DNA of 35,412 nucleotides, taken from assembly GCA_015062525.1 (NCBI GenBank), contig SUUM01000008.1, positions 1 to 35,412 on the forward strand, written 5' to 3'. This DNA is from Alphaproteobacteria bacterium (GTDB lineage Bacteria; Pseudomonadota; Alphaproteobacteria; Rs-D84). Below, in pieces: positions 17,227 to 35,412 of this stretch. The position numbers were made by a program, and so were the translations under genes. Numbering within the stretch: position 1 is the stretch's first letter; every line of letters starts with the position of its first letter. The notes under the pieces were generated by a model that did not search any database, was not told where the DNA came from, and saw only the letters and a program-made list of their open reading frames with translations.

Positions 17227-17412
17227 ATGGGACAAATAAAAGATACTTTAACTGAAACACGCGATTGGGCGCTGGAAATGAAAGATTCAACCAGACAGTG
17301 TCCTTTGTTACACATACAGTTCGCGTGCCAGGCATGGAACCTGGACCAAATAATTAAAATAGCAAACACGGTTGAACGCGCATATAACCGGTTACGTGGC
17401 AAGCAAAGATAG
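17227..17412 (+). CDS. Small hypothetical protein, possibly leaderless
   Basis: A 61-residue protein with no family I recognise. It has two cysteines and tryptophans (RDWALEMKDSTRQCPLLHIQ, then FACQAWNLDQIIKIANTVER) and a basic end. The ATG at 17227 lies about eight bases after a -10-like box, which would give an mRNA with hardly any leader; leaderless translation is common enough in this class to be possible. A start at Met17 is an alternative. It is followed after 12 bases by a second tiny gene. Confidence 0.5.
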   Translation: MGQIKDTLTETRDWALEMKDSTRQCPLLHIQFACQAWNLDQIIKIANTVERAYNRLRGKQR

Positions 17413-17810: not shown

Positions 17811-17837
17811 AAAACCGCCAATTGGCGGTTTTTTTAT
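17811..17837 (+). terminator. Terminator of rpmH
   Basis: AAAACCGCC and GGCGGTTTT form a perfect stem around AATT, followed by further Ts. It begins three bases after the rpmH stop and may also serve the convergent XRE-like gene. Confidence 0.9.
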
Positions 17838-18019
17838 TCCAGCGGACGTTCCGTTATTATTACAAACATTATTTTCTGATATAAATCCAATTCAATTTGA
17901 CCCGTTCTTATCATGGAATAAGTTATATCATTGCTAAGCGCCAGAATATTACACATTTGCCATGCAGGTATACCCAGTTCTTGTCTTGTACTTTCTATGC
18001 GTTGTCCAATATGCATCAT
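17834..18019 (-). CDS. Small XRE-like helix-turn-helix protein
   Basis: A 61-residue protein starting MMHIGQRIESTRQELGIPAW, which matches the first helices of a Cro/CI-type HTH; the next segment (QMCNILALSNDITYSMIRTG) fits the recognition part. It is shorter than most XRE regulators. The TTG at 18055 would lie within the terminator of the upstream RNA, so the ATG pair at 18019/18016 is preferred; GGGGG lies just before them. It is the downstream gene of RNA cassette 1, as the partial gene at 35346 is for cassette 2; the two proteins align as GxxLxxxRxxM-type starts. Confidence 0.6.
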   Translation of the reverse strand: MMHIGQRIESTRQELGIPAWQMCNILALSNDITYSMIRTGQIELDLYQKIMFVIITERPLE

Positions 18020-18033
18020 CACCCCCAATAAAC

Positions 18034-18202
18034 AAAAACCGCGTTTGAAAATCAAAAGCGGTTGGAGGTTTAGAACTATTACAGAAAATAGCGTTGTTTA
18101 TTTATGTATATCACAACCCTCCAACCACTTGGGTTGGAGTTTTACGTCTTGACGACGTTCTGTAATGGGTTCTAAAGCCCCGCACCGGAATCACCCCAGC
18201 GC
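18034..18202 (-). ncRNA. Structured leader RNA or sRNA, cassette copy 1 (possible attenuator)
   Basis: On the minus strand the predicted RNA runs from about 18202 to the T run at 18034. The outer stem pairs 18158-18176 with 18069-18086 (one internal two-base mismatch). Inside, CTCCAACCC (131-139 of 18xxx) pairs with GGTTGGAGGG (18117-18126). A GTTGT/ACAAC hairpin lies at 18113-18117 and 18093-18097. A second CCTCCAACC (18060-18068) overlaps the AACCGC arm (18058-18063) of a terminator whose GCGGTT arm is 18037-18042. GGTTGGAGGG could therefore pair with either CCTCCAACC copy, and the second pairing would break the terminator. Pairings, promoter and position all recur in copy 2. I do not recognise the family. 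Confidence 0.65.
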
Positions 18203-18208
18203 ACGCCT

Positions 18209-18254
18209 ATTATATGACATATAAAATACAATTTCAAATACTTAGATAAATAAA
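18209..18254 (-). promoter_or_regulatory. Promoter of RNA cassette 1
   Basis: On the minus strand TTGAAA (18232-18237), a 17-base spacer and TATAAT (18209-18214). The box TTTTATTTATCTAA lies just upstream (18241-18254) and recurs upstream of the second cassette's promoter, so it may be an operator or UP element. Confidence 0.75.
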
Positions 18255-18280
18255 ATCTTGGTGCGATATGTATGTCTTAT

Positions 18281-23750: not shown

Positions 23751-24190
23751 TTCGAAACGGAAATCATTATAAAACCGAATTATTATATATTTTAATAAAT
23801 TCTTTTGCAAGTGTTTTGTTGAAATTTTTTTGAATTTTTTTGTCATGAAACACGATAAAGCATATTATTATAAATTATATTTTAACCAGGCTTTACCACA
23901 AATCACAGAAATCACAACACAATCAAAACACGCGAACAAATTAATTTCGAACGTCAACAAGATATTGAACATATAAGAACAGGCACTATATTCAATTGCA
24001 AAACAAAATAAAAAAAATTATGCCTGTCAGGGTTTTCAGCAAAATTATATTTGTTTATTGATATTTTTTATTTTTCCCATGTTTTAACGCAATTTTCGTG
24101 ATATTTGTTTAGCAAAAATTAACATCGCAATGTTTTATATTTTTTTATACAAAAAACATGCGTAATATCAATAAGTTAATCGGCATAAAA
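23751..24190. other. Gene-free A/T-rich intergenic region
   Basis: No convincing gene on either strand; the sequence is strongly A/T-rich with runs of A and T. The left end must carry the promoter of the marR-tolC operon. No RNA gene or repeat is recognised in the middle. The right end leads into the paired palindromes. Confidence 0.5.
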
Positions 24191-24308
24191 ACTATAAAAC
24201 AAACCAACGTTTGTTTTATACCATTTTGTCGAACAAAAAAATAGCAGATTTCCGCCATTTTTGCAAGCGAAAATCAACTATAAAACAAACGTTGGTTTGT
24301 TTTATAGT
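24191..24308. repeat. Paired inverted palindromes upstream of glycine-rich genes
   Basis: 24191-24220 and 24279-24308 are 30-base perfect inverted copies of each other, with a 58-base spacer. Each is itself a palindrome: TATAAAACAAAC and GTTTGTTTTATA arms around CAAC in the left copy and GTTG in the right copy. The right copy has 14-base arms (24277-24308) and lies 16 bases before the start codon at 24325. It could be a double regulator site, a transcript hairpin, or the ends of an invertible segment. Confidence 0.8.
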
Positions 24309-24324
24309 CTAAATGGGGGGATTT

Positions 24325-35056: not shown

Positions 35057-35123
35057 TGACAAAGGTTCTTAATTCTTGCCCCCACTGATGACTAATGACT
35101 GATACCTGATGCCCCGGATAAAC

Positions 35124-35170
35124 TTTTATTTATCTAATCGATTGAATATATCAAAAATATCAATTATAAT
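35124..35170 (+). promoter_or_regulatory. Promoter of RNA cassette 2
   Basis: TTGAAT (35142-35147), a 17-base spacer and TATAAT (35165-35170). The box TTTTATTTATCTAA (35124-35137) lies just upstream, as in cassette 1. Confidence 0.8.
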
Positions 35171-35176
35171 ATAGGG

Positions 35177-35317
35177 GCATTGGGAAACCGGTGTGGGGTG
35201 TAAGAGCCTCGTAAGGGATACTCCAACCATGGTTGGAGGGATGTGAATATATTGAATAAGCACACTATTACTCTTAATAGCTCTTAACCTCCAACCGCCT
35301 TAAGTGTGCGGTTTTTT
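35177..35317 (+). ncRNA. Structured leader RNA or sRNA, cassette copy 2 (possible attenuator)
   Basis: The predicted RNA runs from about 35177 to the T run ending at 35317. TAAGAGC (35201-35207) pairs with GCTCTTA (35280-35286); copy 1 has a different sequence pairing at the same place. CTCCAACC (35221-35228) pairs with GGTTGGAG (35231-35238). TGTG and CACA (35242-35245, 35261-35264) form a short hairpin. CCTCCAACCGC (35288-35298) supplies the 5' arm of the terminator AACCGC/GCGGTT (35293-35298 and 35308-35313) with a six-T run. As in copy 1, GGTTGGAGG can pair with the upstream or the downstream CCTCCAACC. It lies 28 bases before the XRE-like gene at 35346. Confidence 0.65.
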
Positions 35318-35345: not shown

Positions 35346-35412
35346 ATGGCAACTGTATTGGTTGATGCAAAATATTTTGGTAATTATCTGCGCATGGCGC
35401 GAAATTCAATGA
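35346..35412 (+). CDS. XRE-like protein, 3' end outside window
   Basis: Only 22 codons are visible, beginning MATVLVDAKYFGNYLRMARN. The G-x-x-L-x-x-x-R pattern is the first helix of a Cro/CI-type HTH and aligns with the start of the gene at 17834-18019. GGGAGGA lies five bases before the ATG. It is directly downstream of RNA cassette 2. Confidence 0.5.
   Translation, partial: MATVLVDAKYFGNYLRMARNSM

Follow-up and report, generated by a model that had tools for sequence, protein, structure and literature searches.

A pseudoknotted leader RNA that likely acts by transcription attenuation in a surface-protein regulon of reduced-genome alphaproteobacterial symbionts

What is the function of two related RNA cassettes, each followed by a small gene, in a stretch of 35,412 nucleotides from an alphaproteobacterium of the lineage Rs-D84 (contig SUUM01000008.1; hereafter the window)? 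A first-pass annotation had read each cassette as a promoter, an outer long-range stem, and a strand that can pair with either of two partners, the second of which overlaps a Rho-independent terminator, and had inferred that the RNA controls read-through into a small XRE-like gene. We conclude that the cassettes are likely copies of a cis-acting transcription-attenuation leader of a surface-protein regulon in reduced-genome symbionts (Candidatus Enterousia and its kin), with the reservation that there are no expression data and that neither the signal nor the switching has been shown. Enterousia belongs to the order Rs-D84; its genomes are close to 1 Mb or smaller, and it has been proposed to live as a symbiont or parasite (PMC12306168). 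That the window comes from this genus is inferred from its relatives.

The features of copy 1, all on the minus strand, are as follows.

18209..18237 (-): promoter, with -35 TTGAAA at 18237-18232, a 17 bp spacer and -10 TATAAT at 18214-18209, read from the sequence
18034..18206 (-): leader RNA, a full-length match to covariance model R1 (150.4 bits, E 1.5e-43)
18181..18203 (-): P1, the 5' hairpin; in the family 6/6 pairs are changed on both sides
18167..18181 (-): P2 hairpin (GGGG...CCC), which covaries
18176-18169 (-): 5' strand of PK1, inside the P2 loop
18158..18167 (-): 5' strand of PK2, whose partner is the P7 loop (family complementarity, permutation test)
18144..18158 (-): P4 hairpin, from the fold and the family alignment
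18132..18139 (-): strand R1 (CTCCAACC), the anti-antiterminator strand (R1:R2 covariation, 0/20000 permutations)
18118..18126 (-): strand R2 (GGTTGGAGG), common to both folds (R1:R2 and R2:R3 covariation)
18093..18117 (-): P6, a stem with a conserved AATAA loop motif (family alignments)
18075..18092 (-): P7 hairpin, whose loop pairs with the 5' strand of PK2 (family covariation)
18069..18076 (-): 3' strand of PK1, whose partner is the P2 loop (family covariation)
18060..18068 (-): strand R3 (CCTCCAACC), overlapping the 5' arm of the terminator (R2:R3 pairing in the family)
18034..18063 (-): intrinsic terminator AACCGC...GCGGTTTTT, whose pairs covary in distant relatives
17834..18019 (-): open reading frame of 61 amino acids (MMHIGQRIEST...) with the Shine-Dalgarno sequence GGGGG, read from the sequence

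Copy 2 lies on the plus strand.

35142..35170 (+): promoter, TTGAAT at 35142-35147, 17 bp, TATAAT at 35165-35170, read from the sequence
35173..35316 (+): leader RNA (113.2 bits, E 3e-32)
35221..35228 (+): strand R1, CTCCAACC, read from the sequence
35231..35239 (+): strand R2, GGTTGGAGG, read from the sequence
35288..35296 (+): strand R3, CCTCCAACC, read from the sequence
35293..35317 (+): terminator, read from the sequence
35346..35412 (+): start of a helix-turn-helix (HTH, XRE-like) gene, truncated by the contig end

The promoter, the three strands and the overlapping terminator claimed by the first-pass annotation are thus all present in both copies. The fold of copy 1 reaches -68.4 kcal/mol, whereas its dinucleotide shuffles give -42.4 +/- 4.1 (z -6.3). 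We note that copy 1 is one of the 31 training rows of covariance model R1, and its own score is not independent, while copy 2 is absent from those rows; the P4 hairpin of copy 1 is shortened or absent in copy 2. The start codon lies 14 nt past the end of the model match in copy 1 and 29 nt past it in copy 2. The gene type that follows copy 2 matches Pfam HTH_3 (24.0 bits, cut-off 23), with full paralogues at two other loci (L003 and L006), while the 61-residue product after copy 1 has no Pfam match, an HTH was not recognised in it, and its HTH nature is inferred by resemblance only. A different 61-residue open reading frame of unknown family, at 17227-17412 of the window, is flanked by a gyrA-like gene and rpmH and has no leader copy. 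Just 5' of the -35 of both cassettes lies an A+T-rich element (TTTTATTTATCTAA; about 18245-18262 on the minus strand and 35121-35138 on the plus strand), which is conserved in cassettes preceding small HTH genes and could possibly be an UP element or an operator.

The two copies proved to be nine in the source genome and hundreds in its relatives, which corrects the earlier count. BLAST of the source genome (991,873 bp in 15 contigs) gives 6 copies and covariance model R1, built from 31 sequences, gives 9, including two (C8b and C9) with fold z-scores of -5.7 and -4.5 against shuffles. Searching GTDB representative genomes with a pattern of R3 plus terminator gave 97 stretches; almost all lie in Alphaproteobacteria MAGs from gut, rumen and similar sources, some of them named Candidatus Enterousia. 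Of 59 congeneric genomes the covariance model matches 55, with from 1 to at least 46 copies in each (46 is a floor, as it equals how many candidates were scored). Within the order it matches 175 of 190 genomes, in 20 of the 22 genera, and sampling the class more widely added 14 of another 237 genomes. Among 299 genomes sampled across the phylum, none gave a covariance-model match beyond the genus, and a scan of IMG/VR with the R3-terminator pattern returned nothing, i.e., no phage family is found by so narrow a pattern. The genome-contig scan gave two chance matches (L098 and L117), which were excluded from the model by eye; L117 is still above the cmsearch threshold (37 bits) and is counted among the 40 gene-less copies described below. 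At four loci of the source genome (L002, L003, L004 and L006) a near-identical stretch (GGTAATGGTGCTTAATTTCTAAAAATTAATATC...) lies 5' of the promoters and adjoins endonuclease-like ORF fragments, and two contigs (C13 and C14) end close to leader copies; together, the common upstream stretch and the nearby contig ends suggest recent duplication of the cassette.

Comparison across these copies shows that the RNA is folded around a double pseudoknot (P2, PK1, P7 and PK2). In 31 diverse copies with 43 pairs, 92.3% of cells are paired; shuffles reach 80%, and slid alignments only 38-52%. For 29 copies extending to other orders, with 37 pairs, the figure is 96.5% compared to 71%, and 35 of the 37 pairs are double-changed. 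The 29-copy alignment is biased towards the structure to which it was fitted, but the sequences do carry these base changes. PK1 joins the P2 loop to the strand after P7 through 7 bp (92-100% paired per position), and most positions use three or four Watson-Crick pair types within the family. PK2 joins the P7 loop to the strand after P2, with complementarity within the same copy of 5.73 out of 6, as compared to 3.90 when permuted (0/5000, genus set), and of 5.54 as compared to 3.83 in the distant set. PK1, P2 and PK2 are each confirmed in both the genus-level and the distant sets, and P2 and PK2 lie outside the covariance model. The independent covariation of P2 and P7 led us to drop a plain nested long-range stem, taken as the entire structure, in favor of the pseudoknotted fold. 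The “outer long-range stem” of the first-pass annotation therefore held only in part, in that it is really two long-range helices crossing two local hairpins; its claim of compensatory change in the stems held, as these covary across the family, and the covariance-model search of related genomes that it had proposed as a check was passed. Whether the hairpins and the long-range helices coexist or alternate is undecided.

R2 is complementary both to R1 and to R3, which makes the two helices mutually exclusive. In the distant copies the complementarity of R2 to the R3 of its own copy is 8.75 out of 9, as compared to 7.55 +/- 0.10 when permuted (0/20000), and that of R1 to its own R2 is 7.47 out of 8, as compared to 6.50 (0/20000); the R1:R3 control gave no complementarity signal in the same permutation test. 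In the model alignment 99.2% of the R2:R3 cells are paired, 7 of the 9 pairs are double-changed and there are 41 double-changed cells; this pairing is part of no model, nor was the alignment fitted to it. Among genus-level copies R2 is nearly invariant and R1 varies only to G-U wobbles, as would be expected if R2 serves two partners. Further away all three strands change together: R1/R2/R3 reads CCTCTCGC/GCGAGAGG/CCTCTCGCC in a distant relative (L222) and CTCCTGAC/GGTCAGGAGG/CCTCCTGACC in L257, another copy of the source genome. This supports the claim, made at first reading, that GGTTGGAGGG pairs alternatively with two CTCCAACC strands. Three copies in a single genome, G281 (L187, L189 and L191), have differing R2 strands, each with a matching R3, and the pairing therefore occurs within one molecule. 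The permutations leave shared ancestry in; nevertheless, the R2/R3 types occur across many families. In the structural alignment, R3 also keeps its overlap with the terminator arm. Terminator and antiterminator are thus mutually exclusive folds, both kept by compensatory change, while the switching between them is inferred.

Alternatively, R2:R3 might act post-transcriptionally, for instance on translation or RNA stability, with a terminator that is leaky by design. In favor of this, in genus-level copies a GGAGG Shine-Dalgarno site is a possible pairing partner for the CCTCC of R3. In distant copies, however, R3 reads CTTCTGGCC, CTTCCAGTC and similar, tracking R2, so that pairing with the Shine-Dalgarno site cannot be general, and the conserved overlap of R3 with the terminator arm also speaks against this explanation, which we consider unlikely. 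A second alternative, ribosome-mediated attenuation with a leader peptide in the style of the trp and his leaders, would have an identical layout of 1:2, 2:3 and terminator pairings. Against it, an upstream open reading frame with a Shine-Dalgarno sequence precedes R2 in only 14 of 185 leaders, compared to 37 of 185 shuffled ones, a covarying fold occupies the 5' half, and the requirement of a translated leader peptide overlapping strand 1 is not fulfilled; we regard this possibility as very remote.

An attenuation leader as we propose it needs an upstream promoter, an intrinsic terminator and an adjoining gene without space for a promoter of its own, and these are met in the family. The -10 lies at -8 or -9 from the start of the match in 161 of 232 family copies, and is a perfect TATAAT in 91 of the 232. 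Flanks were long enough in 230 distinct copies; in 163 of these a start codon with a Shine-Dalgarno sequence lies at most 60 nt past the terminator (2% in shuffled flanks), and in 108 the start lies 20-29 nt past it, a distance so short that there is no room for another promoter. Promoter and gene linkage are thus shown by comparison across the family, as are the structure and both alternative helices. Control of read-through into the next gene, as first claimed, is supported by this spacing, the read-through itself being inferred.

That claim held only in part with respect to its target, since the linkage is not restricted to XRE-like genes. By a simple hydropathy rule, a signal peptide or an N-terminal membrane segment is encoded by 62 of the 93 downstream genes with 70 or more amino acids (67%), compared to 103 of the 424 remaining genes at these loci (24%; p 2.5e-14). 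The downstream genes include outer-membrane barrels and Stealth and family 2 glycosyltransferases and, judged by eye, Cys-rich secreted and pilin-like proteins; in the source genome small HTH or helical proteins predominate. A type III toxin-antitoxin system was considered and dropped, as there is no RNA repeat array and the genes that follow are of many kinds. We also observed, at 24184-24315 of the window, an imperfect inverted repeat with 65-nt arms directly 5' of a secreted-like glycine-rich protein at 24313; on another contig of the source genome (C7), a close paralogue of this protein has a leader RNA (L257) in place of the inverted repeat.

The main rival is that raised by the first-pass annotation itself, a stand-alone trans-acting sRNA with its own promoter and terminator, to which the gene is merely a neighbor. 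The element does have its own promoter and terminator, tandem and gene-less copies exist, the CTCC strands are possible anti-Shine-Dalgarno seeds, and the terminated product might additionally act in trans. Against this, the 108 start codons at 20-29 nt leave no space for a second promoter, and R2 and R3 co-vary within each copy, even between copies of the same genome (G281, and L257 versus the others), which speaks for pairing in cis. Hfq was not found in the source genome (97.6% complete), while the control was detected in Caulobacter, although Hfq-independent sRNAs are not excluded. We therefore disfavor the independent sRNA as unlikely, without fully excluding it.

Gene-less and tandem copies, neither of which a simple leader requires, speak against the attenuation leader that we prefer. 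In 40 of the 230 copies no gene was found by our rule within 300 nt. Some leaders (L062, L072, L085, L113, L115 and others, some in MAGs named as Rickettsiales) have no gene with a Shine-Dalgarno sequence after them but a second G+C-rich hairpin, e.g., TCTTTGGGGG...CCCCCAAAGA, immediately past the terminator. Elsewhere (L150/L266, L162, L261, L096, L029 and L213) two to three leaders follow one another without an intervening gene, 21-119 nt apart; at L096 a promoter, TTGATA-N16-TATAAT, lies within the 33-nt gap.

For the attenuation leader we propose the following scheme. RNA polymerase would initiate at the adjoining upstream sigma70-type promoter and make P1, the knotted core and the strands R1, R2 and R3. 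Were R2 kept in the R1:R2 hairpin, R3 would be free for the terminator and transcription would stop, giving an RNA of about 175 nt; were R2 to pair with R3, the 5' arm of the terminator would be occupied and polymerase would read through into the gene, whose start is usually about 25 nt further on. The core stops 1-2 nt short of R3, and a signal sensed by it would bias the choice between R1:R2 and R2:R3, the likeliest signal being a small molecule or an RNA-binding protein, with no preference between the two. In a nested energy model without pseudoknots, the terminator fold of the full-length RNA is favored by 13 kcal/mol over 139 copies, a margin of 7.7 kcal/mol remaining before the 3' arm of the terminator is made, and the antiterminator is the minimum free energy fold in only 6 of the 139. 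This counts against the scheme, as switching would have to rely on outside help or kinetic effects. As the terminator fold is favored energetically, OFF is likely the default, with read-through needing a signal; this is an inference, as are switching, action at the level of transcription and sensing by the core. We note separately that in some copies (L042, L048, L054 and others) the T run of the terminator can pair with the next A run (TTTTGTTTAACAAAA, TTTCATTCACGAATGAAA); such pairing would arise in read-through transcripts, and compensatory change is seemingly present.

A bolder reading is that the family represents a new riboswitch class, sensing a small molecule or ion and globally regulating the surface and secreted proteome, as a module that would precede as many as about 5% of all genes, or more, in host- or partner-dependent reduced-genome bacteria. 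The ligand, whose binding is hypothetical, might possibly be a metabolite derived from the partner. The conserved pseudoknotted core is compatible with a riboswitch, but without ligand data a riboswitch cannot be distinguished from a protein-binding leader, and on balance we lean slightly away from this reading.

The family is apparently undescribed and does not qualify for any named RNA family. The first-pass annotation knew of no described family of this form, and Rfam 15 likewise holds no matching one: there were no matches in the window at the gathering score, and at five loci with family members nothing above cut-off overlapped the RNA. At a relaxed threshold sRNA-Xcc1 gave two sub-cut-off overlaps (about 27.5 bits, cut-off 53), which we take to be chance. 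A search of the literature, incomplete in its coverage, found no description of the leader RNA. 6S RNA (RF00013), which resembles the leader in length and in the overall rod shape of its nested fold, was rejected, with no match in the source genome and the control detected in Caulobacter; unlike 6S RNA, the new leader is then followed by genes.

Bacteria of the Rs-D84 order have reduced genomes and are thought to be obligate symbionts or parasites (PMC12306168). If the leader works as inferred, they would control much of the cell surface via one repeated RNA switch. In our judgement, few known leader RNA families would be as rich in copies relative to genome size. This makes it testable what these uncultured bacteria sense, and it provides hundreds of natural variants of one terminator/antiterminator module with both folds legible from sequence alone.

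Among known systems, the attenuators of the trp and his type rest on alternative 1:2, 2:3 and terminator pairing. The new leader shares this scheme, and unlike them has a pseudoknotted core and no leader peptide. The SAM-II leader in Sinorhizobium, for which the predicted termination product is an sRNA (PMC9373788), is likewise an alphaproteobacterial pseudoknotted leader with a terminator able to release a short RNA; its target is the methionine pathway, whereas the new leader is without an Rfam match. The fluoride (PMC11077080) and ZMP/pfl (PMC7337938) riboswitches also place a pseudoknotted core directly before a terminator-bearing expression platform, and are cis leaders with covarying stems at many loci. 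In contrast to both, the new leader has a fold of its own, without Rfam match or known ligand, its expression platform covaries as a fixed three-strand module, its genes mostly encode surface or secreted proteins rather than a single pathway, and a genome of 0.9 Mb can hold 46 copies or more.
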